This document shows, one piece after another, positions 7,384-28,752 of a DNA stretch of 64,000 bases. Location: assembly GCF_001645125.1 (NCBI RefSeq), contig NZ_LXKA01000326.1:1-64000 (forward strand), written 5' to 3'. The number at the start of each line of letters is the position of its first letter. Positions within the stretch are counted from its first letter, which is position 1. This DNA comes from Paraburkholderia ginsengiterrae (GTDB lineage Bacteria; Pseudomonadota; Gammaproteobacteria; Burkholderiales; Burkholderiaceae). The notes beneath the pieces are model-generated. The model searched no databases, was not told the DNA's origin, and saw only the letters and a program-made list of their open reading frames with translations. A program made the position numbers and the translations under genes.

Positions 7384-7469
7384 TTATGCCGCCATTAAAC
7401 CGCGAACGCTACAGTTTTGGCTATGCCCCGAAGGAAGTTCCCTCGGGCGACTACTTCGAGGAGATACCC

Positions 7470-9325: not shown

Positions 9326-10534
9326 TTACTCGGCAGGCCGCAGCTTCTTGACCTCGGCATCCGACGGCTGAACGCTCGCGCCGTCGATATAGCGGTATGA
9401 GGTCATCACGCCCTTGCCATCCTTCAGACCCGTCACGCCGACATACGCGCCCATGGTCGACTGATTGTCCTGCGCCCGGAAAGTGATCGGACCGAACGGC
9501 GTGTCCACGCCAAGCCCCTTGAACGCCGCCGCAAGCTTATCCGGATCGACCGATCCCGCTTTCCTGATACCGGCAGCAATCGACATCAAAGCGGAATACC
9601 CCACCACCGAACCCAGCCGCGGATAGTCGTGATACTTGGCCTGATACGCATCGACGAACTTCTTGTTCGCCGCCGTATCGATCGAGTACCACGGGTAGCC
9701 GGTCACGATCCAGCCGGCCGGCGCTTCCGCGCCCAGCGGATCGAGATAGTCCGGCTCGCCGGTCAGCAACGACACCACGCTGCGATCCTTGAAGAGTCCG
9801 CGCGTATTGCCCTCACGCACGAACTTGCCGAGATCCGCGCCGAACAGCACATTGAAAATCGCGTCTGGCTTGGCATCGGCGATTGCCTGCGTCACCGCGC
9901 CCGCATCGACGTTGCCGAGCGGTGTGGCCTGTTCGGCGACAAACTCCACGTCAGGCTGCGCGGCGCTCAGCAGCTTCTTGAACGTCGCCACCGCCGATTG
10001 CCCGTACTCGTAGTTCGGATATACCAGCGCCCAGCGCTTCTTCTTCAGCTTGGCGGCTTCCGGCACGAGCATCGCCACCTGCATATACGTGGACGGACGC
10101 AGACGGTACGTGTATTTGTTGCCGTCGGCCCACACGATCTTGTCGGTCAGCGGCTCGGCGGCGAGGAAGAAAATCTTCTTCTGCTTCGCGAAGTCCGTGA
10201 GCGCCAGGCCGGTGTTCGACAGGAAGCCGCCGAACAGCAGTTGCACCTGCTCACGCGCGATCAACTCCTGCGCGACGCGAATCGAGTCGCCCGGGTTGGC
10301 GTTGTCGTCGCGAGACACAACGTCGAGCTGTTTGCCGAGCACGCCGCCCGCGGCATTTACCTGGTCGAGCGCAAGATTCCAGCCGTTTTTATAAGGCCCG
10401 AGGAAGGCGGGCTGTGCCTTGTAGCTGTTGATCTCGCCGATCTTGATGGTCTGCTGGGCGCTCGCGCTCAAGGCGGCAAGCGAGAGCAGCGTCGGCACCA
10501 TGAGGCGAGAGATCCATCCTGCGCGCGTGGTCAT
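9326..10534 (-). CDS. ABC transporter periplasmic substrate-binding protein (branched-chain amino acid type)
   Basis: 402 residues from ATG 10534, chosen because GGAGAAACGC directly precedes it. Signal peptide about 1-26 (cut near ASAQQ). The mature part is a Peripla_BP_6 fold: TIKIGEINSYKAQPAF, LALDQVNAAGGVLGKQLDVV, and RDDNANPGDSIRVAQELI are textbook for this family. It supplies the binding subunit for the permease and ATPases encoded upstream in the same leftward unit (16027-19483), although three enzyme genes separate them. The ligand is probably nicotinate or a related heteroaromatic acid, inferred from context only; Peripla_BP_6 proteins often bind aromatic acids. Confidence 0.9.
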   Translation of the reverse strand: MTTRAGWISRLMVPTLLSLAALSASAQQTIKIGEINSYKAQPAFLGPYKNGWNLALDQVNAAGGVLGKQLDVVSRDDNANPGDSIRVAQELIAREQVQLLFGGFLSNTGLALTDFAKQKKIFFLAAEPLTDKIVWADGNKYTYRLRPSTYMQVAMLVPEAAKLKKKRWALVYPNYEYGQSAVATFKKLLSAAQPDVEFVAEQATPLGNVDAGAVTQAIADAKPDAIFNVLFGADLGKFVREGNTRGLFKDRSVVSLLTGEPDYLDPLGAEAPAGWIVTGYPWYSIDTAANKKFVDAYQAKYHDYPRLGSVVGYSALMSIAAGIRKAGSVDPDKLAAAFKGLGVDTPFGPITFRAQDNQSTMGAYVGVTGLKDGKGVMTSYRYIDGASVQPSDAEVKKLRPAE

Positions 10535-10615
10535 GCGTTTCTCCGTTATCAAATGGATAGTGCGGGATTGCGGGAATGCGGTTGGTTGTTATCAAGCAGT
10601 CAAGCGGCTGGCGAG

Positions 10616-13600
10616 TCATTCTGCCCGCGGCGTCGCGCGGATTCGGGCGACGCTTGCCGCGACGTCCTGCCAGGCCGGCTTGCCACCGGCGAACTGTTGA
10701 CGCAGATACGAAACGAGTTCGGCGAGCTGGGCGTCGTTGAAACTGTCGCGGTAAGCCGGCATCGTACCGAGTTCAGGCCGCGCAGGCGAGCCGATACCGT
10801 CGAGTATTACGCGAATCAGGTTATCGGGCGTTGCGCTATGCAAATTCGTGTTGAGCGCAAGCGAAGGGTGCGCGCCGAACAGTTGCGGCCCGCTGCCGGT
10901 GTGATGACAGGCGGCGCACGCGCCGTCGAAGAGCCGCGCGCCCAAACCCGAAGGCGCGCCCGTCACGGTGCTGGCCTGCTCATATTGACGCGCCATCGCG
11001 GCGGGATCGGCGTTCGCCTCCAACGGATTGAGCGACGCCAGATAGGTAGCCATCGCGCGAATATCGCTGTCGGGCAACGCCGCCAGATCGCCGACCACCG
11101 GCGCCATCGGCCCGGCCGCGACGCCATGCAGCGGCGCGTGGCCGTCACGCAGGTAGCGATACAGTTCGTCCTCGCTCCACGGCACGGGCGCAGTTGAAAG
11201 CGCCGATAAGGCGGGCGCTTCCCAGCCTTCCGCCATGCCGCCGCCCATGAACGCCATGCCGGTTTTCTCGGCGCCGAATGCGTTGCGCGGCGTGTGGCAC
11301 GCGCTGCAATGGCCGAGCCCGTTCACCAGATACGCGCCGCGATTCCATTGCGCGCTTTGCGTCGCGCTTGCGGCGAACGCGCTGCGTCCGAGAAAGAGAC
11401 CATTCCATGCGGCCATCAACGGACGCGCGTTGAATGGAAAGGCCAGCTTCGTTTCCGGCGGCCGCGAGCGAACCGGCGTTTGCGCCATCAGGTAGGCGTA
11501 AAGCGCCTTGAGGTCGTCGTCGGAGGTGTTCTGGAACGAGGTGTACGGAAACACCGGATAAAGACGGTGGCCGTCGCGGCTGATGCCTTGCCGCATCGCG
11601 CGAATGAAGGCGTCCAACGACCAGTGGCCGATGCCGGTCTGGCCATCGGGCGTGAGATTGGTGCTGTACACCGTGCCGAACGGCGTCTCGAGCGGTTTGC
11701 CGCCGGCGTTCGGCACGCCGTTGTGCGCGGTATGGCAGACCGCGCAATTACCGAGCGACGCGAGCAGCTTGCCGCGCGCCACCAGTTCGGGCGCAAATGT
11801 GCTCGCGAGCGGCGGCGTGATCGGTGCGATAGCCTGCGGCGCAAACGAGAGCGCGCCCAGCCAACCCGCGGCGCCCGCCGCGAAAGCGCTCAGAAAACCC
11901 AGCCGCCAGCGCTTCTTTTTACGCGCGGCCGCTTCATCGGCATGGCTATCGGCGAGCGCGGCGCGGATCGTTTCAGGCGTGAATGGCGGACGGCGAAAAC
12001 GCACGCCGGTCGCATCGTAGAGCGCGTTGGCAATCGCCGCCGCGCCGGGCAGCGACGCAGATTCGCCCGCGCCCATCGGCGGCTCGCCATGGCGCGGCAT
12101 CATCACCACGTCGATCACCGGCACTTCACGGAACGTCAGGATCGGATACGCGCCCCACTCCTGGCTCGTCACGGCGTTCTCGCCGAACGTCACGCGCTCT
12201 TTCAACGCGCGGCTGGTGGTCTGGATCACGTTGCCGTGAATCTGATGACGCACGCCGTCGGGATTCACCATCGTGCCGGTGTCCTGACCGACCACCACGC
12301 GCGTCACCGCCAGTTCGCCGCTCTTTCGATTGACTTCGACGTCGGCCACCCACGCGGACCATGCCGCGCCGAAGCCAGGAAATTTGCTGTGCACGTAGCG
12401 GGCATAGGCAAACCCGCGGCCACGCGCAATGTCGCCCTCTTCTTCCTTGCGCTCGGCGTTACGCGGTTCCCAGCCAGCCTTGTCGGCCACGGCTTTGACC
12501 AGATCGATCGCACGCGGATCGGTGAGGTGCCGCAGGCGAAATTCGACAGGATCGACGCCCGCCTGCTCGGCGAGTTCGTCGATGAAGGACTCATGAGCAA
12601 ACGTGTTCGGCAACGCGGACACGCCGCGCAGCCACGCTGCGCGCACGATCGGCGGCGTATCGTCGCAGACGATCCGCTTCGCGCGATAGTCATACGGCGG
12701 CACGGCCGTGCGGTCGCCCATCTCGTACACCTGCGGCTCGGCGGAAATCGTGCCGGTCAGCAGCAGCGCCAGCGTGGGCGCATCGTTCGACGGATAGCGC
12801 GTGGCAAAGTCGTACGCGGCCAGTTCGCCGTCGGCATTCAACGCGCCGCGCACGTCCATCAATTGCGCGGCGCCCTTCGGCTCCCACGCGTGCTCGTCTT
12901 CGCGCGAGAGTTGCACGCGCACCGGCGCGCCGGCGGCACGCGAGAGCAAGGCGGCGTCGGCGGCGACATCGTCCGCGCAATTGCGGCCGTAGCAGCCTGC
13001 CGCCTCCATCCGCACGATCTCGATGTGCGCTTCGTCCATGCCCATCAGCAACGCGAGATCGGCACGCAGCGAATGCGGATTCTGCGTGCCCGACCAGACC
13101 TTCAGCGCACCCTCACGATAGTCGGCCACCGCGCAGGACGGTCCAATCGACGCGTGCATCTGAAACGGCCACACGTAAGTGCGTTCGAGCGTGCGAGCGG
13201 GATCTTGCGCCAAGGCCGCATCGACGTCGCCGTCGATGACCAGCTCGCGCCGTTTGGCCGGATTTGCGCGCAACGCGGCTTCGACTTCTTCGCTGGTATC
13301 GAGCGACGGCAAACCGTCGACTGCTTTCCACCGCACGTCGAGTCGTTTCACGGCCTGCTGCGCGACTTCCTCCCGCTCGGCGACCAGGCCGACAAAATCC
13401 CGAATCACCACCACCTTGACGATGCCGGGCAGTTCGTTCACGGACGCTTCATCGACATGCAGCAGGCTGTTGCCCACGAAGCCGCCTTGCGCGATACCGG
13501 CATACGGCGGGCGCACCACGCGGCCATGCAGCATGCCCGGCACGCGCACGTCATGGACGAAGGTCAGTTCGCCGGTGGCCTTCGCGGGAATATCGACGCG

Positions 13601-14221
13601 CGGTGTGCTTCTGCCAACGATCCGGTACGCGTCGGGCGATTTCAAAGGCGCGTCGGCGGCGAGTTGGAGTTCGACACGTTTTCCGCTGACCAGATCGCAA
13701 TAGCTCACGCCTTGCACGGTGCTACCGTCGCGTGGGAATACCACGCCGTCACGCACGTCGAGGTGCTCCGCGCTGACTTTCAGGCGCGCCGCCGCTTCAC
13801 CCAGCAGATAGTGCCGCGCCTGCGCCGCCGCCTGGCGCAACGGCACCGCCGATATCTGGATCGTCGCGCTGGCAATCGTCGGCCCCTGATTCGGCGCTTC
13901 GCGCGTGTGGCCGAGCACGATCGACACGCGCGTCAGCGGCACATCCAGCTCCTCCGCCACGATCTGCGCGAGCGCCGTGCCTATACCCGTGCCGAGATCG
14001 ACGTGGCCGTTGAAAGCGACCACGCTGCCGTCGTCGCGCACCACCAGAAACATGTCCGCTTCGGTCGGCAAGAACGACGAACGCGAGCCGGGCTGACCGG
14101 CCGCAGGTTTCATCGGCGCCTGCGGCGGTCGCGCCACGATCAACACACTGCTCGCGTCGTAGAGCTGCTGACGCGACGGCGGCGCGGCACGCCTGTCGAC
14201 GCTGAAATCCGGCCCCGTCAT
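10616..14221 (-). CDS. Molybdenum hydroxylase large subunit fused to a tri-heme cytochrome c (NicB-like)
   Basis: 1201 residues. Residues 1 to ~765 are a xanthine-dehydrogenase-type molybdopterin domain of the IorB/NicB type (GHVDLGTGIGTALAQIVAEEL, GAGESASLPGAAAIANAL). A hydrophobic helix at 774-793 follows KKKRWR, then three cytochrome c domains with CxxCH at C826, C972 and C1102. This matches nicotinate hydroxylase NicB of Pseudomonas putida, which hydroxylates nicotinate at C6 and sends electrons to the respiratory chain through its hemes. The start overlaps the stop of the 2Fe-2S subunit (ATGA). Substrate is inferred from the enamidase and reductase genes in the same unit; other azaheterocycles remain possible. 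Confidence 0.82.
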   Translation of the reverse strand: MTGPDFSVDRRAAPPSRQQLYDASSVLIVARPPQAPMKPAAGQPGSRSSFLPTEADMFLVVRDDGSVVAFNGHVDLGTGIGTALAQIVAEELDVPLTRVSIVLGHTREAPNQGPTIASATIQISAVPLRQAAAQARHYLLGEAAARLKVSAEHLDVRDGVVFPRDGSTVQGVSYCDLVSGKRVELQLAADAPLKSPDAYRIVGRSTPRVDIPAKATGELTFVHDVRVPGMLHGRVVRPPYAGIAQGGFVGNSLLHVDEASVNELPGIVKVVVIRDFVGLVAEREEVAQQAVKRLDVRWKAVDGLPSLDTSEEVEAALRANPAKRRELVIDGDVDAALAQDPARTLERTYVWPFQMHASIGPSCAVADYREGALKVWSGTQNPHSLRADLALLMGMDEAHIEIVRMEAAGCYGRNCADDVAADAALLSRAAGAPVRVQLSREDEHAWEPKGAAQLMDVRGALNADGELAAYDFATRYPSNDAPTLALLLTGTISAEPQVYEMGDRTAVPPYDYRAKRIVCDDTPPIVRAAWLRGVSALPNTFAHESFIDELAEQAGVDPVEFRLRHLTDPRAIDLVKAVADKAGWEPRNAERKEEEGDIARGRGFAYARYVHSKFPGFGAAWSAWVADVEVNRKSGELAVTRVVVGQDTGTMVNPDGVRHQIHGNVIQTTSRALKERVTFGENAVTSQEWGAYPILTFREVPVIDVVMMPRHGEPPMGAGESASLPGAAAIANALYDATGVRFRRPPFTPETIRAALADSHADEAAARKKKRWRLGFLSAFAAGAAGWLGALSFAPQAIAPITPPLASTFAPELVARGKLLASLGNCAVCHTAHNGVPNAGGKPLETPFGTVYSTNLTPDGQTGIGHWSLDAFIRAMRQGISRDGHRLYPVFPYTSFQNTSDDDLKALYAYLMAQTPVRSRPPETKLAFPFNARPLMAAWNGLFLGRSAFAASATQSAQWNRGAYLVNGLGHCSACHTPRNAFGAEKTGMAFMGGGMAEGWEAPALSALSTAPVPWSEDELYRYLRDGHAPLHGVAAGPMAPVVGDLAALPDSDIRAMATYLASLNPLEANADPAAMARQYEQASTVTGAPSGLGARLFDGACAACHHTGSGPQLFGAHPSLALNTNLHSATPDNLIRVILDGIGSPARPELGTMPAYRDSFNDAQLAELVSYLRQQFAGGKPAWQDVAASVARIRATPRAE

Positions 14222-14724
14222 GCGCGCACTCCTTCATGCACGGCCGCTTGCGCCGCGAGCAACTCAGCAGCGCGCTGCACCGCGCGCACGATCTCGACAT
14301 GCGTGCCGCAGCGGCACAGGTTGCGCGACAGTTCGCGCTGGATCGTCTCGACGGCCGGATGCGGGTCGCGATCGAGCAGCGCCTTGGCCGTCATGATCAT
14401 GCCGTTCAGGCAATAGCCACACTGCGCGGCCTGCTCTTCGATAAACGCCTGCTGCACCGGATGCAACGCGGCCCGCGTGCCCAAGCCTTCGAGCGTGGTG
14501 ATCTCCCGGCCCAACGCCACCTTCGCGGTCGTGACGCACGCTCGTGTCGGCATGCCGTCGAGCAACACCGTGCAAGCGCCGCATTCGCCGAGGCCGCAGC
14601 CGAATTTCGGGCCGTTCAGCGCGAGGTCGTTGCGCAGCAGGTAGAGCAAGGGCGTGTCGGCCGCGGCGCTGACGAGATGCGTCGCGCCGTTCACGTTCAG
14701 CATCAGCGGGACCGGGCGATTCAT
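14218..14724 (-). CDS. Molybdenum hydroxylase 2Fe-2S subunit (NicA-like)
   Basis: 168 residues from ATG 14724 (a GTG at 14739 would add five). Two iron-sulfur clusters are visible: a plant-type set C43, C48, C51, C63 (CGLGECGAC...C) and a helical set C102, C105, C137, C139 (CGYC...CRC). This is the small subunit of the xanthine-dehydrogenase family; it carries electrons from molybdopterin in the large subunit toward the cytochrome domains. No FAD subunit is encoded nearby, as in NicAB and isoquinoline oxidoreductase. It overlaps the large-subunit gene by 4 bp, so the two are translationally coupled. Confidence 0.88.
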   Translation of the reverse strand: MNRPVPLMLNVNGATHLVSAAADTPLLYLLRNDLALNGPKFGCGLGECGACTVLLDGMPTRACVTTAKVALGREITTLEGLGTRAALHPVQQAFIEEQAAQCGYCLNGMIMTAKALLDRDPHPAVETIQRELSRNLCRCGTHVEIVRAVQRAAELLAAQAAVHEGVRA

Positions 14725-14755
14725 AACCGTGCCGGACACAGGTTGCGGCGCGCGT

Positions 14756-15955
14756 TCACAGCACCACCGGCACTTCGGTGGCCGGTGGCGTGTTGCGGCT
14801 GCGCCGGCAGCGGATCAGACCGTCGATCATCACCATGCCCACGCCCGGAATATCGCCGAGTTGCACGCTTTCGAGCAGGGTATCGGCCGCCGTGTGTTGC
14901 GCGCGGTCCATGAACACGAAGTCGGCGGGCCGGCCCACTTCGATCAGCCCTTGCCGCAGATTGCGTTGGCGCGCCGTGTTGCCAGTCGCGAAGCAGAAGG
15001 CGATTTCAGCGGGCACGTCGGCGAGACTCGAGATCAGCGCGATCATCCGCAAAATGCCGAGCGGTTGCACGCCGGAGCCGGCCGGACTATCCGTGCCGAG
15101 AATGATCCGGTGCGGACACTTCAACTCGATGGCATGACGTGCAGTCAGCAAGGCGATGCGTTCGTTGCCGTTGTGGACGATCTCCAGCGCGCGGCTCGAT
15201 TGCTCGCACAGATCGCACACATGCCGGTAGGACAGCGACGTATGCCCGCCGTTGATGTGGCCGATCACGTCCGCGTCGGCCGCGAGCACCACGTCACGAT
15301 CGATCAAGCCGGAGCCGGGAATCGACGGGCCGCCCGTGTGAATCGTGCTTTGAATACCGTACTTGCGTGCCCATGCGACCATCTGCGCGGCTTCCTCGCC
15401 GCCCTTCACGCTGCCCAGACCCACTTCGCCCAGCAGTTTCACGCCCGCTTCCGACAGCTCCTTGAAGTCCTCTTCGACCATGCCCTTTTCGATCACGGGC
15501 GCGCCCGCCATCACCTTGACGCCGCCACCCACACCCGCGCCACGCATGCCTTCAAACGAGCGTTGCGCGGTAATCGCCAGCGCCTTCACGCCGAGCACAT
15601 CTTTCGGACGACCAGGCAGATGCACTTCGCCGGCGGAGATCATCGTGGTCACGCCGCCATTCAGATTCGATTCGATCCAGCCCATCTGATTCTGGCGCGG
15701 CGTCCAGTCGCCGAACACGGGATGCACATGCGAATCGATCAGGCCAGGGGCGACGGCCGTGCCTTTGCAGTCCACCGTGGTGCGCGCGCCTTCGAGATCG
15801 CAATCCTGCTCGCGGCCGATGGCAACGATCACACCGTCGTCGATCACCAGCGTGTTCGCGTCGAGAATCGGCCGGTCGATGTCGCCGGATAACAGCAGGC
15901 CAATGTTCCTGATCGCGACCTTGCCCGACGAGCCTGTCAACGTCTCTGCTGCCAT
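14756..15955 (-). CDS. Enamidase-like amidohydrolase (6-oxo-1,4,5,6-tetrahydronicotinate amidohydrolase family)
   Basis: 399 residues from ATG 15955, with AGGAGA upstream. Amidohydrolase metal ligands: H76-x-H78, a glutamate E177 in GEVGLG, H206 in IHTGGPSIPGS, H233 in GHINGG, and the aspartate in ILGTDSPAG. These blocks, with GGVTTMISAG and LPGRPKD, resemble Eubacterium barkeri enamidase as I remember it, which opens 1,4,5,6-tetrahydro-6-oxonicotinate to 2-formylglutarate and ammonia. Sitting 16 bp before the NicA-like gene and in the same unit as a 6-hydroxynicotinate reductase homologue, it would be the ring-opening step. It could act on a related cyclic enamide. Confidence 0.82.
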   Translation of the reverse strand: MAAETLTGSSGKVAIRNIGLLLSGDIDRPILDANTLVIDDGVIVAIGREQDCDLEGARTTVDCKGTAVAPGLIDSHVHPVFGDWTPRQNQMGWIESNLNGGVTTMISAGEVHLPGRPKDVLGVKALAITAQRSFEGMRGAGVGGGVKVMAGAPVIEKGMVEEDFKELSEAGVKLLGEVGLGSVKGGEEAAQMVAWARKYGIQSTIHTGGPSIPGSGLIDRDVVLAADADVIGHINGGHTSLSYRHVCDLCEQSSRALEIVHNGNERIALLTARHAIELKCPHRIILGTDSPAGSGVQPLGILRMIALISSLADVPAEIAFCFATGNTARQRNLRQGLIEVGRPADFVFMDRAQHTAADTLLESVQLGDIPGVGMVMIDGLIRCRRSRNTPPATEVPVVL

Positions 15956-16026
15956 CTGCTTCTCCTTTCGCAACGACTGCCCGGCGCCGAGGGCGTGCAC
16001 GAGGCACGCTTCGCGCCGCGATGGAA

Positions 16027-16740
16027 TCACACGCTCAGGTAAGCGCGCCTCACTGTTTCGTTCTGTGCGAGTTCGCCGATCGTGCCGCTAAAGCGGATCT
16101 GCCCTTTCTCGAGCACATACGCGCGGTCGCTGACCAGCTCGGCGAAGTGCAGATTCTGTTCGGACAACAGAATGGACAGTCCTTCGCGCTTGAGTTCGAG
16201 AATCATGTTCGCCATCTGTTCGACGATCACCGGCGCCACGCCTTCGGACGGTTCGTCGAGCAGCACGAGATACGGATTGCCCATCAAGGTGCGCGAGACG
16301 GTCAGCATCTGCTGCTCGCCGCCGCTCATCTGGCCGCCCGGACGTTGCGGCATTTCGCCGAGATTGGGAAAGAGCCGGAACAGCTTGTCCGGCGTCCATT
16401 GCGGCGCGCCTTCGCGCGGCGGCTGACGGCCGGTGTCGAGGTTTTCCATCACGGTCAGGTCCGCGAACACGCGGCGGTCTTCGGGCACGAAACCCATTCC
16501 CATGCGCGCGATCTTGTAGGGCGGCAGCGCCGTGATGTTCTGCCCGCGAAACTTCACCTCGCCCTGACGGCGCGGCAGCAAACCCATCACTGCCTTCATC
16601 GTGGTCGATTTGCCTGCGCCATTGCGGCCCATGAGCGCCACCACTTCGCCGCGGCCGACTTCGAGGCCGACGTCGAAGAGAATATGCGCGCGGCCGTAGA
16701 ACGCATTGAGGCCGGAGACTTTCAGCATCGGCTCGCTCAT
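16027..16740 (-). CDS. ABC transporter ATPase, LivF type
   Basis: 237 residues, the LivF length. Walker A GRNGAGKST near 39-47, signature MSGGEQQML near 138, Walker B LVLLDEPSEGVAP. The EPSEGVAP and LSEQNLHFA motifs are characteristic of LivF of branched-chain-type importers. It overlaps the LivG-type gene (ATGA at 16737-16740) and has AAGGAG before its start. It energises the fused permease encoded at 17543-19483. Confidence 0.95.
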   Translation of the reverse strand: MSEPMLKVSGLNAFYGRAHILFDVGLEVGRGEVVALMGRNGAGKSTTMKAVMGLLPRRQGEVKFRGQNITALPPYKIARMGMGFVPEDRRVFADLTVMENLDTGRQPPREGAPQWTPDKLFRLFPNLGEMPQRPGGQMSGGEQQMLTVSRTLMGNPYLVLLDEPSEGVAPVIVEQMANMILELKREGLSILLSEQNLHFAELVSDRAYVLEKGQIRFSGTIGELAQNETVRRAYLSV

Positions 16741-17546
16741 TGCAGCGCTCCTTGTCCGCTATGGCCGTCCGTAGCGTCCTCTAGCGGCGCATGCGGCCGG
16801 AACGTCTTGCCGGTGCCGAAATAGACCTCCTGCACGCGCGGGTCGTTGCGAATCGTATCGCCGTCGCCCTCGGCAATCAGCTTGCCGCGCGCAAGCACGA
16901 TCATGCGGTCAGCGTAGGCGAATACGACGTCCATGCTGTGCTCGGTAAACAGCACGCCGATCTTGTGCTCGGTGACGAGACGTTTGGTGAGCGCCATCAA
17001 TTCGTTGCGTTCCTTCGGCGCCATGCCGGCGGTGGGTTCATCCATCAGTAGCAGTTTCGGGCGGTTGGCAAGCGCGATGGCAAGCTCGACGCGCTTGACG
17101 TCGCCATACGCGAGCACGCCGCATGCGCGATGCGCGTCGGCGGCCATGCCGACCTGTTCGAGCAGCGCGAAGGCTTCTTCGGCGTAGCGTGCGCCTGCGG
17201 GCTTCCACAGGCCGAAGGTTTTGCGTTCGCGGGAGACCAGCGCCATTTGCACGTTCTCAAGCACGGTCATCGAATTGAAGGTCGCGGCGATTTGAAACGT
17301 GCGGCCCACGCCGAGGCGCCAGATGTCGCGCGGACGCATGCCGACCAGTTCATGCCCGTCGAGAAGGATCGATCCAGACGAAGGCGGCAGCTGCCCGTTG
17401 ACCATGTTGAAACAGGTCGACTTGCCCGCGCCGTTCGGGCCGAGCAAGGCCAGCAGTTGGCCGGCTTCGAGATCGAAGGAAACATCGTCGACTGCCTTGA
17501 GACCGCCGAACGATCTGGAGAGGCCCCTGACGCGCAGCAAGCTCAT
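16737..17546 (-). CDS. ABC transporter ATPase, LivG type
   Basis: 269 residues. Walker A GPNGAGKST, LivG-type signature LAYGDVKRVELAIAL, Walker B LLLMDEPTAGMAPKERNEL, and the H-loop LFTEHSMDVVF. Strong ribosome site AAGGAGGGG before ATG 17546. Overlaps the permease stop by 4 bp and the LivF-type start by 4 bp, so the three are translationally coupled. Second nucleotide-binding subunit of the importer. Confidence 0.95.
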   Translation of the reverse strand: MSLLRVRGLSRSFGGLKAVDDVSFDLEAGQLLALLGPNGAGKSTCFNMVNGQLPPSSGSILLDGHELVGMRPRDIWRLGVGRTFQIAATFNSMTVLENVQMALVSRERKTFGLWKPAGARYAEEAFALLEQVGMAADAHRACGVLAYGDVKRVELAIALANRPKLLLMDEPTAGMAPKERNELMALTKRLVTEHKIGVLFTEHSMDVVFAYADRMIVLARGKLIAEGDGDTIRNDPRVQEVYFGTGKTFRPHAPLEDATDGHSGQGALQ

Positions 17547-19483
17547 AGCCCCTCCTTGATCGCCGTGCGTCGTGAAGGCGACACGCTGCTCTGCTCCGCT
17601 TCGTCCGCGCTATCGTCGCCGAAACGCTCGCGAATGAAGCCGACGATCCCTTGCGGGAACGCAATCACCAGCAACAGGATCGCGAAGCCCAGCAGCGCCT
17701 GCCAATAGTCCGTTTGCCGCGCGACGGTGTCTTGCAGCCACGTGAACACGGCCGCGCCCACGATCGGGCCGGTGAGTGTCTGCAAGCCGCCGAGCAATAC
17801 CATCACGAGACCGTCAATGGAACGGCTCACGCTGATCACTTCTGGCGAAATCGTCCCCTTGGAGAAGGCGTAAAGCGATCCGGCGAGACCGCAGAACAAC
17901 GACGCGATCACGAACGCCGCCCATTGCACACGCTTCACGTCGATGCCGATCGCCTCGGCGCGCAAGACGGAATCACGCGACGCCCGCATGGCATAGCCGA
18001 GCGGCGAGAACAGCATCTTGCGCAGCAGCCATACGCCGGCCACCGCGCAGACCAGCGTCAGATAGTAAAAGGCCACCGGCGAAGACAGCCAGTTCGACGG
18101 CCATAGACCGAGAATGCCGTTGCTGCCGCCCGTCACGTCGTCCCACTGGAACACGACCGACCAGACGATCTGCGCGAACGCGAGCGTCAGCATTGCCAGA
18201 TAGACGCCCGAGAGACGCACGCAGAACCAGCCGAACACGAGGGCGCCGGCCACCGCCAGGAGCGGGCCGAGCAGCAACGCGGCTTCCATCGGCAGATTCA
18301 GCACCTTGAGGAACAGCGCGGCGCCGTAAGCGCCGAGTCCAAAGTAGGCAGCGTGCCCGAATGAATGCAGACCGCCCGGTCCCATGATGAAATGCAGACT
18401 CGTCGCGAACAGCACGGCGATCAGGATCTCGACCAGCAGCACGGGCATATACGGGAACGCATTGGCCGCGAGCGGCGCGAGGACGAGGACCAGCAAGGCG
18501 ATCCCAGCCAGCCACTTCAGGCGTTTGCCTGCCGGACGCAATGGCGTTTCCGGCGCCGCCAGGCCTCGCACCGCGGCACTCGCGCGGCCTAGCAGCCCCC
18601 AGGGCCGCACCACCAGCACCACCGCCATCACCACGAATTCCGCCACCAGCGTAAAACGGCTCAACGAGAGCCCGACGCCGAAGATCGTCACATGACCAAT
18701 GCCGATGCACAGCGCCTTGATCTCCGCGATGATCAGCGCGGCGATGAACGCGCCCGGAATCGAACCCATCCCGCCGACCACCACCACGACGAACGCGTTG
18801 CCGATGGTCTCCAGATCCAGCGACAGGTTCGCCGACATGCGAGGCCCTTGCAGCGCGCCGCCCAACCCGGCGAGAAACGCGCCGACGAAAAACACCCCGG
18901 TAAATAGCCACGCCTGATTGATGCCGAGCGAGCCCAGCATCTCGCGGTCCTGCGTCGCGGCGCGCACCAGCGTGCCCCAGCGCGTGCGCGTCAGCGCGTA
19001 CCAGAGCAGCAGCAGCACCACCGGTCCGATCACGATCAACGCGATGTCGTAAGTGGGCAACGGATGGCCGAGAAAATCGACCGCGCCCGCCAGATGCGGC
19101 GCGCGCGGTCCGAACAGGTCTTCCGGTCCCCATAGCCACAACGCGGCGTCGCGAAAGATCAGTACGAGCGCAAACGTGGCGAGCAGATGAAACAGCTCAG
19201 GCGCCTGATAGATACGCCGCAGCACCACCATTTCGACCAGCGCGCCCAGCACCGCGCCCACCAGTGCCGCCACCAGCACCGACAGCCAGAAGCCGGCCGC
19301 CGTATGGCCGAAGCGGCTCGCGATGCTATACGCGACATAGATGCCGACCATATAGAACGAGCCGTGCGCGAAATTGACGATGCGCGTCACGCCGAAGATC
19401 AGCGACAAACCGGCGGCGACCAGAAACAGCGTCGACGCGTCGGCGAGTCCGTTGACCATCTGTACCAGCAAATTCGAAAGCAT
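17543..19483 (-). CDS. Fused branched-chain-type ABC permease (LivH-LivM)
   Basis: 646 residues, about twice a single permease. Residues 1 to ~290 are the LivH half (GVTRIVNFAHGSFYMVGIY near 29-47); after a short linker the LivM half begins near 315 (MGPGGLHSFGHAAYFGLGAY) and ends with PQGIVGFIRERFG. Many hydrophobic helices in each half. In most genomes these are two genes; fusion guarantees equal amounts of both halves. Start ATG 19483 has GAGGAG upstream. It follows the AA_synth gene after 42 bp and belongs to the same leftward unit. Confidence 0.93.
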   Translation of the reverse strand: MLSNLLVQMVNGLADASTLFLVAAGLSLIFGVTRIVNFAHGSFYMVGIYVAYSIASRFGHTAAGFWLSVLVAALVGAVLGALVEMVVLRRIYQAPELFHLLATFALVLIFRDAALWLWGPEDLFGPRAPHLAGAVDFLGHPLPTYDIALIVIGPVVLLLLWYALTRTRWGTLVRAATQDREMLGSLGINQAWLFTGVFFVGAFLAGLGGALQGPRMSANLSLDLETIGNAFVVVVVGGMGSIPGAFIAALIIAEIKALCIGIGHVTIFGVGLSLSRFTLVAEFVVMAVVLVVRPWGLLGRASAAVRGLAAPETPLRPAGKRLKWLAGIALLVLVLAPLAANAFPYMPVLLVEILIAVLFATSLHFIMGPGGLHSFGHAAYFGLGAYGAALFLKVLNLPMEAALLLGPLLAVAGALVFGWFCVRLSGVYLAMLTLAFAQIVWSVVFQWDDVTGGSNGILGLWPSNWLSSPVAFYYLTLVCAVAGVWLLRKMLFSPLGYAMRASRDSVLRAEAIGIDVKRVQWAAFVIASLFCGLAGSLYAFSKGTISPEVISVSRSIDGLVMVLLGGLQTLTGPIVGAAVFTWLQDTVARQTDYWQALLGFAILLLVIAFPQGIVGFIRERFGDDSADEAEQSSVSPSRRTAIKEGL

Positions 19484-19525
19484 CGCGCTCCTCGGCAGCT
19501 CAGCGAAAAATAACCGGATGCTAAC

Positions 19526-20110
19526 TCAGCGCAAGCCGTCTTCGCCCTTGATCTCGCTCACCTGCAAGCCGCCGATGCGCGGCAGCGGCCGGCCCGACGC
19601 CGTCACCGCGACAGCCACCACGATTTCATTGGCACGCGGCGCATCGGACACGCGCGCCTCGATCGCGTCGAAATGGCTGCGCACGAAGGCGGCGTCCTTG
19701 TGACCGAGCGGCACGTCGATCGCGGTGCCGAGCGTGCCCATTTTCTTCGCCGACGGCACCAGCGCCGCGCCCTTTTCTACCGCCACGCGCAGCGGCGCGC
19801 CGAGCTTGGGATGCAGGATCGCCGCGGCATGTTCGAGTTCGCCAGCTTCGCCCACAATCGCGGCCTTGCCGTAGCTTTGCGCCTCGCCCGGCGCGATGCC
19901 CAGCGCTTCGACGCACTTGTTGCCGAGCAACGCGCCCAGTTCCTCGCCCGCTTCGATCAACGCATCGAGCTTGGGCTCATAACGGCCCGCATAGGGATTC
20001 TCGATCACCGCAATCGCGACTGCGCGACGTGCCGGCGGATCGATGGTCTGCCCCATTTCAATGCGCGTTTCATCCACCTGCACGACCAGCTTGCGAAGCT
20101 TGATTGCCAT
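19526..20110 (-). CDS. AA_synth (DUF1185, PF06684) family protein, paralogue 2
   Basis: 194 residues from ATG 20110, preceded by GGAGAGCGAA. Conserved blocks shared with the neighbour at 20178: AVIENPYAGRYEP, SYGKAAIVGEAGELEHAA, and RSHFDAIEARV. The family has a chorismate-mutase-like fold known from a Bordetella structural-genomics entry, and a role in amino acid metabolism has been proposed without proof. Its place between a 6-hydroxynicotinate reductase homologue and an importer suggests a hydrolytic or isomerising step on a ring-cleavage intermediate. Function is not established. Confidence 0.8.
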   Translation of the reverse strand: MAIKLRKLVVQVDETRIEMGQTIDPPARRAVAIAVIENPYAGRYEPKLDALIEAGEELGALLGNKCVEALGIAPGEAQSYGKAAIVGEAGELEHAAAILHPKLGAPLRVAVEKGAALVPSAKKMGTLGTAIDVPLGHKDAAFVRSHFDAIEARVSDAPRANEIVVAVAVTASGRPLPRIGGLQVSEIKGEDGLR

Positions 20111-20177
20111 TTCGCTCTCCGAGTTTCGATGCTTGCTCTGCTCTATGCCGATACGCCGATTCAATGCTTCAACGCGT

Positions 20178-20768
20178 TTAACGCAAACCGTCCTTGCCGA
20201 CGATAGCCTCTTTCGCGAGGCCGCCGACGCGGGCATGCACGCGCTGGCCGGTGCTCATCACGAGGATATACACCAGTTCGTCCGCGGCGGGCGCGCCGGG
20301 CACGCGCACTTCGATCGCGTCGAAGTGGCTGCGCACGTAGCTCGCGTTGACGTGGGTCAGCGGCACGTCAAGTGTCGTTGAAGGTCCGCCGACTTTCTTG
20401 GTGGACGGCACAATCGCATTGGTCGGCACGCCGTTCTTCTCCAGCAGCTCACGCATGGCATAGCCGCCGGGCACGTGCCACAGCGCACCGTGCTCGAGTT
20501 CGCCGCGCGCGCCGACAATCGCGCCCTTGCCATAGCTTTCGATGGATGCATGCGGCACCGCCATCGCCGCCAGCAGGCGTTGCGCCATATCGAAGCCTAT
20601 TGGTTTGAGCGCCTCCATCGCGTGCTCGATGTTCGCTTCATAGCGGCCGGCGAACGGGTTCGTCATCACGGCGGCAATCGCGCCGCGCCGCAGCGGCTGT
20701 GCGGGCGCGGGGCCGAACTCGTGGAAGATATCCTCGACGTGTGTCAGCACGCGGCGTATTTCGAACAC
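20178..20768 (-). CDS. AA_synth (DUF1185, PF06684) family protein, paralogue 1
   Basis: 196 residues from GTG 20768, chosen because CGGAGG stands 5-6 bases upstream. Blocks: AVMTNPFAGRYEA, SYGKGAIVGARGELEHGA, VRSHFDAIEVRV. It is clearly homologous to the next gene, so the two may form a hetero-oligomer or handle successive intermediates. Its first 25 bp overlap the end of the UPF0280 gene. No signal peptide; cytoplasmic. The reaction is unknown. Confidence 0.8.
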   Translation of the reverse strand: MFEIRRVLTHVEDIFHEFGPAPAQPLRRGAIAAVMTNPFAGRYEANIEHAMEALKPIGFDMAQRLLAAMAVPHASIESYGKGAIVGARGELEHGALWHVPGGYAMRELLEKNGVPTNAIVPSTKKVGGPSTTLDVPLTHVNASYVRSHFDAIEVRVPGAPAADELVYILVMSTGQRVHARVGGLAKEAIVGKDGLR

Positions 20769-21682
20769 GGAGCCTCCGTTGTGATCCGGGCGCGCTGCGC
20801 AAGCAACGCACCTGTGTGATGAATTCCGGCAACGCGCACCCGCCCTTGCAGGAATAACGCGGCGCCCTCGATCAAGCCTTGTTCAAGCAGACGCTGGGCG
20901 GCGTCGACGCCACGCGCCAGCGCGAAATCGGCCAGCGGCTGCGGCAGGCGCGGCACATCGACCGTGACTGGCGTATCGCCGAGATCGCTATCGTCTTTCA
21001 ACGACGAAGCCGGACGCCGCAAGATGCCCGGATGATCGAGGTCGACGGCGTTGGCGATCATCGTGGCGGCGGCGTCGGCGGTGGCCGCGTCGGCAGCGAG
21101 CACAGTCACGCTGTCGGCAATGCCCAGGCTAAAGCTGCGGCCTCGCCAGCCGCTCGTCGCGATGCCGCGAACCGGCAGACTGGCATCGAGCGTCAGGTTT
21201 CCATCGAGCGCGAGATGGTTCGCCCCATGCGTCGGCGAGTAAGCGGCCAGATCCGCGAATATGCCGACGCGGTACTGCTGTCCTTCTGTCAAATACAACG
21301 CGATGTCGCCACCGTTGTTGATAAACGCGCGCGCAATTCCTTCGCGAGCGAATGCCGTGATCAATTCATCGGCGACGCTGCCCGCCACGGCCGCCATCGG
21401 CGTGATGAAGCGCGCTCGGTGCGGATGGCAGGCGGTCCACATGCGGCGGGCCACCGCGCCTTGCCACGCGGCGTCATTCAACGCGGCTCCGGCGGGCACG
21501 GGTTGCCGAAGCCGCTTTAGTTCGCCAACCAGTTCCGGCAACACCTCGGCAAAGCGCGCCCAGCACGCCTCATACGCGGCCTGCACGGCGGCGGGCTCGC
21601 CGTCCGCGCTGAGGATCAGGTCGATCGGCCCATGCTGCCAGTGCCAGCGGGTTGCATCGAGCTGGGTGCGGGTGGGGTTCAT
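20744..21682 (-). CDS. UPF0280 family (ApbE-like fold) protein
   Basis: 312 residues from ATG 21682 (MNPTRTQLDATRWHW); the same frame stays open far upstream, but that part overlaps the reductase gene antiparallel in codon sense and is not coding. Family blocks: VAGSVADELITAFA, FINNGGDIALYL, GIATSGWRGRSFSLGIADSVTVLA. UPF0280 proteins resemble the flavin transferase ApbE, hence a possible flavin-handling or small-molecule role. It starts 14 bp after the reductase stop with no clear ribosome site, so translational coupling is likely. Function unproven. Confidence 0.82.
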   Translation of the reverse strand: MNPTRTQLDATRWHWQHGPIDLILSADGEPAAVQAAYEACWARFAEVLPELVGELKRLRQPVPAGAALNDAAWQGAVARRMWTACHPHRARFITPMAAVAGSVADELITAFAREGIARAFINNGGDIALYLTEGQQYRVGIFADLAAYSPTHGANHLALDGNLTLDASLPVRGIATSGWRGRSFSLGIADSVTVLAADAATADAAATMIANAVDLDHPGILRRPASSLKDDSDLGDTPVTVDVPRLPQPLADFALARGVDAAQRLLEQGLIEGAALFLQGRVRVAGIHHTGALLAQRARITTEAPCSKYAAC

Positions 21683-21696
21683 ATTCGTACGCGCGC

Positions 21697-23331
21697 TTAG
21701 CCGGGCATCGGCGGCATGGCGGGTGGCCACGGGTTGTCGGGATGGCGCGCCAGCGTGCGGCGTGCGAGCGGTGCGCCCTCTGTATGGTCCGGTCCGTGAG
21801 CCAATACGCTCTCCAACGAGCGCACCGCGGCGAGATGACCACCGAGATCGCGATACGCGTCGTAGGTCATGGTGAATTCGATCGGCGCAACGATCGCGGG
21901 CGTAGGCACCGTGCCGAACGAACGGTCGGGCATGCGCGACACGTCCACCATGACCGTGATGCCGCCACCCGGCCACACGTAGGCAGGCGCACCGCCGCAG
22001 GTCACATTCACCCGTTTCTGTTTGATCGCGCGCGTGAGCAGCACCGGGTTTTCCGTGGCGCCCGCTCGAAGACTGCCGCCCGCGCCGCCAATAAACAGCA
22101 CGGTGGCCAGCGACGGTTCGCAGTTTTCGCCGATCCGTTCGACCGTGCCGCGCACGGCATCCGGCATTGCTGCGATACGGGGCACGAGATCCTGATCGAG
22201 TTCGTACCACTGCGCGTGTTCGCCGGTGGTCGAGACCATCAATAAACGCATGCCCGGTCTGGCGACGGCAGGATCGAAGCCTTCGACAATCGCAAGAGGG
22301 TCCTGAATATCCGTGCCGCCCCAACCGGTGCCGGGATTCGCCACCTGAAAATAACGGCCCGGTGTGGACTTGCGTCCGCGAATCTTCAGACCTGAACGCG
22401 TCATGCCGAGACAACGGCCCGCCTGGTGTTCGGTGAGCACGCCGGTGATGTGATCGTCGACGACCACCACTTCGTCGACGTGACCGAACCATTGCTTCGC
22501 GAAGATGCCGATGGTGGCCGAGCCGCATCCCACCCGCATGCGCTGCTCCTCGACACCGTCGACGATCGGCGCCGCGCCCGCGCGAATCACGAGACTCGCG
22601 CCGCCGTCGATGCTCAGGTCCACCGCTTCCTTGTTGCCGAGCGCGAGCATCATGTCGCACGTCACGCGGCCCTCTTTCTTGCTGCCGCCGGTCAGGTGAT
22701 GCACCCCGCCGAGGCTCAGCATCTGCGAGCCGTACTCGGCCGTCGACACATGACCGACGATCTCACCGTGGCAACGCACGTTCGCCTGCTCCGGCCCGAG
22801 GAAACGGTCGGTGTCGATCTTCACCTTGAAGCTGCAGTAGCTGAAAATGCCCTCGGTGACGACGGTGATCATATCGACGTCGTCGAGCTTCGACGCAACG
22901 ATAAACGGCGCGGGCTTGTAGTCGGGATACGTGGAGGACGCGCCGACACCGGTCACGAACAAGGCTTGTTCGGCAGCAGGAGCTTGCGCTTCGGACGCCG
23001 CGCCGAATTCGACCGTAGCATCTTCAAGGGCCACGCCGGTTGTTTCAGGCGCCGCAACGGCACGCGACAGAAACACGACAGGATCGACGCGAATCAGCCG
23101 TCCATCCGCATTCGCATAACGATCGCACGCGCCGGTGCGCCCTTCCGAGATCTGGCACAGCACCGGGCACGCGTTGCATTCGATCTTGTTCGACGCCATG
23201 CGCTCGCTGCGCGGCGCCGCCCGCTCAAGCACGGTCGGACCCGGCGTCGAGGCGGTTTCGCCGTCGACGCTGTCCGCACCGAAATCGACCTTCGTATGTT
23301 CTGTCATGACGGGGTTCCCATACGACGACAT
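21697..23331 (-). CDS. 6-hydroxynicotinate reductase-like Fe-S protein
   Basis: 544 residues if ATG 23331 is used (AGGA at good spacing); ATG 23307 is an alternative. A four-cysteine cluster site lies at C52, C55, C59, C69 (CNACPVLC...C). The body matches what I know of 6-hydroxynicotinate reductase of Eubacterium barkeri (EC 1.3.7.1), which uses reduced ferredoxin to make 1,4,5,6-tetrahydro-6-oxonicotinate. First gene of the leftward unit, directly behind the divergent TetR promoter. The pathway reading rests on the enamidase and NicAB-like genes downstream. No ferredoxin gene is in the window, so the electron donor is open. Confidence 0.75.
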   Translation of the reverse strand: MSSYGNPVMTEHTKVDFGADSVDGETASTPGPTVLERAAPRSERMASNKIECNACPVLCQISEGRTGACDRYANADGRLIRVDPVVFLSRAVAAPETTGVALEDATVEFGAASEAQAPAAEQALFVTGVGASSTYPDYKPAPFIVASKLDDVDMITVVTEGIFSYCSFKVKIDTDRFLGPEQANVRCHGEIVGHVSTAEYGSQMLSLGGVHHLTGGSKKEGRVTCDMMLALGNKEAVDLSIDGGASLVIRAGAAPIVDGVEEQRMRVGCGSATIGIFAKQWFGHVDEVVVVDDHITGVLTEHQAGRCLGMTRSGLKIRGRKSTPGRYFQVANPGTGWGGTDIQDPLAIVEGFDPAVARPGMRLLMVSTTGEHAQWYELDQDLVPRIAAMPDAVRGTVERIGENCEPSLATVLFIGGAGGSLRAGATENPVLLTRAIKQKRVNVTCGGAPAYVWPGGGITVMVDVSRMPDRSFGTVPTPAIVAPIEFTMTYDAYRDLGGHLAAVRSLESVLAHGPDHTEGAPLARRTLARHPDNPWPPAMPPMPG

Positions 23332-23424
23332 TACTAGCGGTCCTGCTCCGGCTGACGAATAGCCCTTGTTTAAAGGCACTTTCGTGTGATCAACCGATTT
23401 CCATGTTGCGGTCACTCACCATTC

Positions 23425-23442
23425 GTGTAGTATTTGCTACAC
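23425..23442. promoter_or_regulatory. Palindromic operator in the TetR/heterocycle-operon divergent promoter
   Basis: GTGTAG-TATTTG-CTACAC, a perfect 6+6+6 inverted repeat, lies about 95 bp before the reductase start and 190 bp before the TetR start. TetR regulators commonly bind such palindromes in divergent promoters. A second small inverted repeat, CCA-AAC-TGG, begins immediately after it. Binding is inferred. Confidence 0.6.
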
Positions 23443-23629
23443 CAAACTGGTTAGAAATCTACTCGATCAATTTAGTCTGCGCAATGTGTTTACAAGTGTG
23501 CGCGTGAATGGTGCGTTGCGACATTGCCGTCGCATTGCCACTTCAGCGACGCTTCAATCTACGCCGAAGTCAATCGGCGCGCAGCGCATGCCGTTCAACC
23601 CGACGCCAACAAAGAGATCCGAGGCCGTC

Positions 23630-24292
23630 ATGAGTAGTCTCACCGCCGCCCGCAAACCGGGCGCCACCGGCATTCGTGCGAAACAGGCGCAAGATACGCG
23701 CGCCAAGATTCTGAAAGCGGCCATAAAGGTCTTCGCGAAGCAAGGCTATGCAAGTGGCCGCGTGGAAAGTATTTCGAAGGCCGCGCGTTCGCACGACCGC
23801 ATGATCTATTACTACTTCGGCAGCAAGGAGCAGTTGTTCGTCGAAGTGCTTGAAACGATCTACACGCAATTCAACGAAGCGGAGAGCAAGCTCGATCTCG
23901 ATCTGGACGACCCTGCGCACGGGCTCGAACAGATGGTCGAATTCGTCTGGCAGTACTATCTCGATCACCCCGAGTTCGTCACACTGCTCTCGAGTGAAAA
24001 CCTGCATCAAGGCAAGCACGCAAAGAAATCGTCCAAGCTCAAGGAGATTTCGGGCTATGCGATTTCGGTGGTGGAGAAGTTGCTGGACGCGGGCAAGGCC
24101 CAACGCGTGTTTCGCGAAGACGTCAAAGCGCGTGACGTCTATCTGATGATCGCGTCGCTCGGCTATTTTTATAACGCCAATCAGTACACGTTAGGCGCGT
24201 TTCTCGGCGAGCCGCTCATGGAGAAGGAGGCCCTCGCGCATTGGCGCGAGGTCATCAAAGATACGGTGTTGCGCGCGGTACGATCGGCGTGA
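23630..24292 (+). CDS. TetR-family transcriptional regulator
   Basis: 220 residues from ATG 23630; GAGG lies 5 bases upstream and the longer frame from 23486 lacks a good start. The N-terminal HTH spans about 24-70 (RAKILKAAIKVFAKQGY, MIYYYFGSKEQLFVEVL). The C-terminal domain (TetR_C type with WQYYLDHPEFVTLLSSENL) is the ligand pocket. Divergent from the reductase gene with an 18-bp palindrome between, so it most likely represses the 9.3-23.3 kb operon and responds to the substrate or an intermediate. Confidence 0.9.
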   Translation: MSSLTAARKPGATGIRAKQAQDTRAKILKAAIKVFAKQGYASGRVESISKAARSHDRMIYYYFGSKEQLFVEVLETIYTQFNEAESKLDLDLDDPAHGLEQMVEFVWQYYLDHPEFVTLLSSENLHQGKHAKKSSKLKEISGYAISVVEKLLDAGKAQRVFREDVKARDVYLMIASLGYFYNANQYTLGAFLGEPLMEKEALAHWREVIKDTVLRAVRSA

Positions 24293-24316: not shown

Positions 24317-24712
24317 TTGTTACGGCTGCGCAGCCGCATCGTCCTCGCGGAACAGCTTATCGGCGAGATGGAACGCCGAATTCGCCGCCGGCACGCCGCA
24401 ATAGATCGCGGTTTGCAGCAGCACTTCCTTAATCTGCTCGCGGGTCACCCCGTTGTTCTTCGCCGCACGCAGATGCAGCGCGAGCTCTTCGCTCCGGTTG
24501 AGCGCGACCATCATTGCGATGGTCAAGAGGCTGCGCGTGTGGCGCGGCAAACCATCGCGCGTCCAGATTTCGCCCCATGCATAGCGCGTGATGAAATTCT
24601 GGAATTCCTCGGTCAGCTCGGTGCGGTTCGCAAGCGACCGGTCGACGTGCGCGTTGCCCAGCACCGCGCGGCGCACACCCATCCCGGCTTCGTAGCGGTC
24701 TTCGTCGTTCAT
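24317..24712 (-). CDS. pcaC: 4-carboxymuconolactone decarboxylase
   Basis: 131 residues or fewer, the PcaC size. Family pattern: AWGEIWTRDGLPRHTRSLLT, HLRAAKNNGVTREQIKEVLLQTAIYCGVPAANSAFH split by short spacers, with the active-site E/C/H cluster of the AhpD-like fold. It decarboxylates 4-carboxymuconolactone to 3-oxoadipate enol-lactone. The start overlaps the pcaD stop by 4 bp (24709-24712), so it is the last gene of a coupled pcaIJ-B-D-C set. Confidence 0.93.
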
Positions 24713-25500: not shown

Positions 25501-25517
25501 GCCGGTTACTCCCTGAA

Positions 25518-26885: not shown

Positions 26886-26924
26886 GGTGACGTCGATGAA
26901 CGAATGTGTCGATAGTAAATAGTA

Positions 26925-26966
26925 CGCGGCGCGGGAACCGGCCGCGAGGCCGACTCCCGCGCCGCG
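26925..26966 (-). other. Long intercistronic hairpin between pcaJ and pcaB
   Basis: CGCGGCGCGGGA (26925-26936) pairs perfectly with TCCCGCGCCGCG (26955-26966). Inside, CGGCC-GCGA-GGCCG (26939-26952) forms a second stem capped by a GNRA tetraloop. No U-run follows, so it looks like an mRNA stabiliser or processing site rather than a terminator. Confidence 0.65.
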
Positions 26967-26990
26967 CCGGGCGGGCTCCGGGCGGGCTCG

Positions 26991-27650: not shown

Positions 27651-27661
27651 GTCAGGTCTCC

Positions 27662-28366: not shown

Positions 28367-28513
28367 GTCGAATTTCCTTTTGAGGCGCTGCGTGCCGCCA
28401 CGCGGGCTGCCTTGCGGGCAGAGCCGGTATGGCACGGTCTCCAGGCCAATGCTGGCAGCGGCTCGAAAAGGGGAGAGACGGGCCGGCGCCTTCGGTTTGC
28501 TTGCTTCAAACTT

Positions 28514-28547: not shown

Positions 28548-28752
28548 GCTGGAGCGATTATGGTTGCCGTTCGGGTGGCTTGTCAAGGATGGGAATTCTC
28601 CCTAATGATAGGTTTTAACCGCGCACAAGGAAGGAGCGATGCACAGCCCAGCGGCAGCAGCGACGAAGATCGCGCTATCCGCCGTCGAGATAATTGAGCT
28701 ACCCTCTATAGGCATATCAAATACGCCACCCTGTGCCGCAGATCATAGAAAC

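Follow-up and report, generated by a model that had tools for sequence, protein, structure and literature searches.

The window, a 64,000-nucleotide stretch of DNA comprising positions 1 to 64,000 of contig NZ_LXKA01000326.1 from Paraburkholderia ginsengiterrae, contains an operon that very probably imports nicotinate and degrades it reductively, and that is probably controlled by a divergent gene of the TetR family. The leftward unit consists of eleven minus-strand genes, running from about position 23307 down to 9326, and the TetR gene (23486–24292) is on the plus strand. In the order of transcription, the operon encodes a protein similar to 6-hydroxynicotinate reductase (Hnr), a UPF0280 protein, two AA_synth proteins (AAs1 and AAs2), a fused LivHM permease, LivG- and LivF-like ATPases, an enamidase-like amidohydrolase (Ena), NicA- and NicB-like hydroxylase subunits, and a periplasmic binding protein. 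The initial annotation of the window had read this unit as a complete reductive nicotinate pathway that combines respiratory hydroxylation with ring reduction and opening of the fermentative type. The combination is supported by matches to the Ena and Hnr enzymes of Eubacterium barkeri, which the annotation had named for comparison, and it is already known from an aerobe (PMC3511419); completeness holds for the first three steps and not beyond them.

The product of the enamidase-like gene (14756–16030, minus strand) matches the structure of E. barkeri enamidase (2vun) with an E-value of 2.3e-109 over residues 37–420 (384 of 424), with the next chain at 1.6e-5, and is 47% identical to the product of E. 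barkeri ena according to tblastn. The product of the reductase gene (21697–23307, minus strand) shares 39.7% identity with the product of E. barkeri hnr (L057:1827–3326; tblastn) across 473 residues. Hnr has no Pfam match and no significant sequence match in the PDB (best E-value 0.39). Homologues of Hnr and enamidase thus occur in the same unit as hydroxylase genes, as in a cluster of the reductive tetrahydro-oxonicotinate route, with the substrate assigned by homology. Pfam searches detected neither a NicC-type monooxygenase nor a ring-cleaving dioxygenase among the cluster genes.

Among 60 near relatives, 17 carry a homologue of hnr, as do 33 of 398 genomes of the same phylum. Both counts include the own genome, and one of the 33 matches, in G302, spans only 37 residues. 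One 20-kb region was fetched from each of 47 other hnr genomes, leaving out G302 and the second copy of G019. An enamidase scan of a named genome collection provided eleven loci, ten of them at 60–100% identity, including those of E. barkeri (L057) and a deltaproteobacterial metagenome bin (L066). The eleventh (L067, 25%) contained no match to the window hnr, UPF0280, AA_synth or enamidase proteins and was excluded from later counts, so that 58 loci were compared: the 47 regions, the ten named loci and the window. The UPF0280, AA_synth and Hnr counts were obtained by tblastn. The counts of HydA, HydB, ferredoxin-NADP reductase-like and nicotinamidase genes are approximate, because the family clustering on which they are based picked some antisense or over-long frames (it recovered UPF0280 in 46 of the 58 loci). 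The whole gene order is kept in all thirteen unbroken same-genus regions fetched in full (L070–L082; 66–98% protein identity), and therefore the cluster is not a chance assembly. The fetched part of L086 contains no binding protein. A broken version of the cluster is present in the same-genus genome G008 (L085, G008:C10:1000–20900), where hnr, the permease, enamidase and NicB match in pieces and LivG is unmatched. Such decay, or a partial acquisition without function, is highly improbable for the operon of the window, the frames of which are intact and the order of which recurs in the thirteen regions. A chance or decayed assembly was rejected on these grounds.

The following sequence of reactions can be put forward for the operon. 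The Liv-type importer would take up nicotinate. The NicAB-like molybdenum enzyme would convert it to 6-hydroxynicotinate and, judging from its architecture, deliver the electrons to the respiratory chain by way of the three c hemes that it carries itself. Hnr would reduce the ring to 1,4,5,6-tetrahydro-6-oxonicotinate with electrons supplied from outside the cluster, the donor probably being NADPH via a ferredoxin reductase. The enamidase, as its homology to the E. barkeri enzyme suggests, would open the ring to 2-formylglutarate and ammonia. Conserved gene linkages suggest that the most likely role of UPF0280 is in the maturation of Hnr, perhaps through attachment of its flavin, and that AAs2 acts in the enamidase step or on its product. 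The steps after 2-formylglutarate presumably differ from those of E. barkeri, because no methyleneglutarate mutase was found in the genome (8.5 Mb in 393 contigs, 100% complete): the E. barkeri mutase query, chosen by its place in L057 and its B12-domain match, gave only a match of 31% over 97 residues when compared with the whole genome. A methyleneglutarate branch of the E. barkeri type was rejected for this reason.

Several observations weigh against the degradation of nicotinate by this route. The hydroxylase is only 25–27% identical to the products of the E. barkeri NdhL and NdhM genes. A TetR match is present in only 17 of the 47 regions, which implies that control varies among the relatives. 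Purified Hnr of E. barkeri reportedly carries three Fe-S clusters and a flavin in covalent linkage, and no attachment site for this flavin could be assigned in the sequences. Furthermore, wild-type Azorhizobium caulinodans is reported to show no measurable nicotinate catabolism in microaerobic culture (PMC3357923).

The real substrate might instead be another pyridine carboxylate or a lactam, processed by hydroxylation, ring reduction and lactam opening, with nicotinate playing a minor role. The importer and hydroxylase score below every substrate-specific NCBIfam cut-off, and some clusters encode a close homologue of Hnr alongside a different hydroxylase and another ring opener. Two of these branch near the clade of the window in the Hnr tree, so that the family is perhaps not restricted to a single substrate. 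We nevertheless regard this alternative as unlikely, since Ena and Hnr both match E. barkeri enzymes and sit together, and since the Bradyrhizobiaceae strain SG-6C, with a cluster of this kind, degraded both nicotinate and 6-hydroxynicotinate as its only source of carbon (PMC3511419). A nicotinamidase family is also present in 10 of the 47 hnr regions, in both branches of the clusters described below, and the one member tested passes its NCBIfam cut-off. In a tree of Hnr sequences (53 of the 58 rows), the window belongs to a fully supported clade of 15 rows, all from enamidase clusters. The HydA-containing rows, described below, are scattered, and two of them, L083 and L084, branch immediately beside the group that unites the clade of the window with L087 and L088. 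Clustering with enzymes of other substrates had been named in the initial annotation as a sign against nicotinate; the clade of the window contains enamidase clusters only, which favours nicotinate weakly, as the clade is also equal to the genus and L083 and L084, with a different ring opener, branch so close to it.

The Hnr core contains one four-cysteine motif (Cys4), CxxCx3Cx9C, which is invariant in 21 aligned rows and present in 47 of the 48 window-type loci, that is, the window and the 47 same-phylum regions; L116 is without an in-frame core motif. None of the 47 window-type Hnr proteins with the core motif contains ferredoxin motifs. In the named loci, two CxxCxxCxxxC motifs precede the core Cys4 in all eight, out of ten, that have an in-frame core. 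Of the other two, L059 is truncated where its contig ends, and an assembly gap breaks L064, the start of which shows ferredoxin-like cysteines. Pfam confirmed 4Fe-4S domains in both named-locus proteins tested, those of L057 and L066. As judged from the sequences, Hnr of the anaerobe type carries a ferredoxin domain, whereas window-type Hnr does not. Because it has no such domain, Hnr of the window must obtain its electrons from elsewhere, which raises the question of by what means an aerobe drives this ring reduction, given that the anaerobe-type enzymes have a built-in ferredoxin domain for it. The Cys4 motif (residues 72–106) shows a weak similarity to the N-terminal part of the radical SAM protein AmmeMemoRadiSam (E-value 0.017; 14 bits, the cut-off being 220). 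The threonine of the CGSAT stretch was considered as a firm flavin site and rejected, as it is replaced by alanine in L088 and L115 and by serine in L066.

A ferredoxin-NADP reductase-like protein is a candidate for the electron supply of the ring reduction. Its gene was found in eight of the 47 regions (L087:11034–11957, L088:8104–8928, L092, L094, L097, L098, L112 and L113), and the two members tested scored 135–143 bits, under the NCBIfam cut-off of 390. A ferredoxin reductase-like gene is divergent from hnr and adjoins it in L087, L088 and L140 (CP099606.1, L140:10992–11765). In CP099606.1, a gene annotated as 6-hydroxynicotinate reductase stands beside UPF0280, two amino acid synthesis family proteins and the divergent ferredoxin--NADP reductase. 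The genome of P. ginsengiterrae encodes a homologue of that ferredoxin reductase, with 61% identity, on another contig. Together with the failure to find the mutase, this bears out the initial annotation, which had placed both the electron donor and the steps after 2-formylglutarate outside the cluster.

The UPF0280 gene (20744–21682, minus strand) is located beside hnr on the same strand in 57 of the 58 loci; in the exception, L061, the hnr frame ends early and the contig stops 214 bases later. UPF0280 was found in all 47 fetched regions, and a search of the 398 same-phylum genomes gave 32 positives, which are exactly the 33 hnr genomes minus G302. Every strong match adjoins hnr, and G394 and G420 each contain one extra weak match (E-value of about 3e-4). 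The protein belongs to the ApbE superfamily: the window copy scores 28.9 bits against the Pfam ApbE cut-off of 25.6, in its C-terminal part only (29.3 bits for the E. barkeri copy), and 412 bits against the cut-off of 290 of NCBIfam PRK04334.1-2. The blocks NNGGD, TSG and ADAxAT (D231, T235) are present in 55–57 of 57 UPF0280 sequences and align with canonical ApbE in hhalign. The D-x-x-x-T block, which takes part in metal binding in ApbE, is present in all 57 and aligned to ADALTT of E. barkeri ApbE. Given the strict pairing with hnr, the ApbE-family match, the conserved blocks and the covalent flavin reported for E. barkeri Hnr, UPF0280 is a candidate for a flavin transferase, or another maturation factor, that acts on Hnr. 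Full-text literature searches retrieved no paper for UPF0280, and none for ApbE flavin transferase together with covalently bound and nicotinate.

UPF0280 may instead lack any action on flavin and assist Hnr as a structural or assembly partner, sharing no more than an ancestral fold with ApbE, a possibility to which we assign almost even weight and which is compatible with the proposed nicotinate pathway. The ApbE match is restricted to the C-terminal part, as mentioned above, and a full-length ApbE domain including the HHILSAKTG stretch was not detected: hhalign of UPF0280 against the canonical E. barkeri ApbE gave a probability of 51% over 96 columns, with this stretch mostly in gaps. The conserved blocks aligned with their ApbE counterparts speak against a mere partner, and the strict pairing with hnr is equally compatible with a dedicated modifying enzyme. 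Canonical ApbE was not found in the genome of P. ginsengiterrae, whereas the same search was positive in 7 of 14 control genomes, including an alphaproteobacterium; the search of the own genome also missed UPF0280 itself at an E-value of 0.001, so that weak members could escape. In E. barkeri, the search returned a canonical ApbE and a second match with coordinates fitting its UPF0280 gene.

The two AA_synth (PF06684) paralogues, AAs1 (20178–20768, minus strand; Pfam 223 bits) and AAs2 (19526–20236, minus strand; Pfam 236 bits), differ in their linkage to the enamidase. AAs1 is related to the solved structures 3byq and 2qtp. In E. barkeri, the gene immediately following ena encodes a protein that is 50.8% identical to AAs2 and 41.5% identical to AAs1. 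Copies were assigned by the best tblastn match, and the AAs2–enamidase locus sets were compiled by hand. With L061 set aside, AAs2 occurs in 40 of 57 loci, and in 39 of these 40 an enamidase lies inside the region or no more than about 7 kb away from it. All 39 loci with such an enamidase contain AAs2, and L108 is the lone AAs2 locus without one. Fisher's test of the linkage gave a p-value of 1e-13, with the loci treated as independent despite their relatedness. None of the 15 AAs1-only loci has an enamidase close by, and no AA_synth was seen in L084 and L090. The regions of G181 and G251 lack AAs2, and these two genomes encode an enamidase elsewhere. A quick tree of 71 uninterrupted copies separated AAs1 from AAs2 with no misplaced row and a weak support of 0.64. 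Because of this conserved linkage, AAs2 may serve the enamidase step or its product. The AA_synth family has a solved chorismate-mutase-like fold (PMC2954203). The homologue TgnF is stated to stimulate aldehyde oxidation in trigonelline breakdown, and the authors of that statement saw no such stimulation for their own protein HcdD (PMC7913881). The roles proposed here for UPF0280 and AA_synth, two families of unknown function, are concrete and testable.

The enamidase is present within 36 of the 58 loci in a re-count that gave 58 for hnr and 57 for UPF0280. Six of the 22 genomes without an enamidase in the fetched region contain a full-length one (59–69% identity, one with an internal stop), four within about 7 kb; the remaining genomes have no enamidase or only short, weak amidohydrolase matches. 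Ten same-phylum regions (L083, L084, L090, L095, L097, L108, L112, L113, L114 and L116), none of which has an enamidase, contain a gene for a caprolactamase-like hydantoinase A (HydA), for example L112:14642–16711 (minus strand), which is followed by HydB (L112:12936–14642, minus strand), a family found in four regions. The HydA member tested scored 503 bits to caprolactamase alpha, with a cut-off of 1000. HydA is present at 60–100% identity in all 18 hnr genomes without a nearby enamidase: the ten with HydA in the region, six with neither gene in the region, and G181 and G251, which have HydA plus an enamidase elsewhere in the genome. In seven enamidase-cluster genomes examined, the best HydA match was 34–46% in six, and G264 had none at an E-value of 1e-60. 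There is thus an apparent second way to open the reduced ring, and the caprolactamase-like HydA is possibly an ATP-dependent ring opener that is unreported, although no literature search was aimed at it.

These observations can be joined into one model, in which UPF0280 is a dedicated ApbE-type transferase that flavinylates Hnr covalently, the aerobic Hnr without a ferredoxin domain uses an external NADPH–ferredoxin reductase, and the second branch swaps the enamidase for an ATP-dependent opener of the caprolactamase type. We propose the joint model tentatively and consider it rather doubtful as a whole. If it is true, flavinylation extends to a cytoplasmic ring-reducing enzyme.

Homologues of Hnr are also found on 26 plasmid records, for example in Sulfitobacter (12), Rhizobium (4) and Sagittula, 21 of them at 60–80% and five at less than 60% identity; 23 of the 26 plasmids are typed as non-mobilizable by the database.

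The strand, coordinates and components of the unit given in the initial annotation agree with the Pfam matches and the frame list. The importer is present in all its parts: the fused permease (17543–19483) with two BPD_transp_2 stretches, the LivG-like (16737–17546) and LivF-like (16027–16740) ATPases, both matching the Pfam ABC ATPase, and the binding protein (9326–10552; Peripla_BP_6, 242 bits), all on the minus strand. The NicA-like [2Fe-2S] subunit (14218–14739, minus strand) contains Fer2 and Fer2_2 domains and is 44% identical to the product of the NdhS-like gene of E. barkeri. The NicB-like molybdopterin subunit (10616–14221, minus strand) contains MoCoBD_1, MoCoBD_2 and cytochrome c domains, and its CxxCH motifs at residues 826, 972 and 1102 account for the three hemes that had been predicted. 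The close spacing with several 4-bp overlaps was likewise found, with four overlaps (LivHM/LivG, LivG/LivF, LivF/Ena and NicA/NicB) and no intergenic gap above 63 bp. The divergent regulator contains TetR_N and TetR_C_29 domains; its open frame is probably too long, since the helix-turn-helix domain begins at residue 75. The open frame of the reductase, which starts at 23415 and has 572 residues, extends past the likely start of the gene: in the same phylum, most matches start at query residues 62–77, two same-order matches start at residues 35–36, and the MTEHTK start at about 23307 is shared with L017 and L030. The enamidase probably starts at about residue 26–37 of its open frame.

Beside the operon, positions 24709–28435 (minus strand) and 28639–29682 (plus strand) contain genes for an alpha/beta hydrolase, a Lyase_1/ADSL_C lyase, two CoA-transferase subunits and a LysR protein, which look like protocatechuate (pca) genes of a separate aromatic pathway. 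Just beyond the end of the operon, a GntR/aminotransferase-type regulator (5889–7304, minus strand) is divergent from a class-III aminotransferase (7386–8798, plus strand).

The aerobic nic pathway of P. putida proceeds through NicAB, NicC, NicD and NicX. The operon of the window resembles it in the NicAB-like hydroxylase with c hemes and differs from it in that the cluster genes include no monooxygenase or ring-cleaving dioxygenase, so that reduction of the ring, instead of its oxidation, would be expected. The route of E. barkeri passes through tetrahydro-oxonicotinate and 2-formylglutarate. Its locus (L057) shares hnr, UPF0280, ena and AA_synth with the window, and six window genes have counterparts there. 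The order in L057 is hnr, UPF0280, hgd, ndhF, ndhS, ndhL, ndhM, permease, ena and AA_synth, followed by the mutase and later genes, with the gene names used in the E. barkeri literature (Alhapel 2006). In contrast to the window, the Hnr of E. barkeri includes a ferredoxin domain and its hydroxylase comprises an FAD subunit and two molybdenum subunits; the 21 kb of this locus contain a single AA_synth gene, with mutase genes behind it, and no Liv importer.

Clusters of the window's kind were described in 2012 in A. caulinodans (AZC_2804–2790), Bradyrhizobium japonicum USDA110 (blr3818–3830), Rhodopseudomonas palustris HaA2 and strain SG-6C (PMC3511419). The same paper cites conversion via glutarate in A. 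caulinodans, the route of which is also listed in PMC9304392. A strain of A. caulinodans with an insertion in the nicotinate dehydrogenase (hydroxylase) gene is given as Nic-minus and 6-OH-Nic-plus in the strain table of PMC3357923, and PMC2650096 likewise used a strain in which the nicotinate hydroxylase gene carries an insertion. Hnr of SG-6C is 42% identical to that of E. barkeri (PMC3511419), compared with 40% for Hnr of the window, and no difference in kind from the SG-6C group was found in a comparison made by published description rather than by sequences. Both the pathway and clusters of this kind had been published by 2012, and the window adds a further member.
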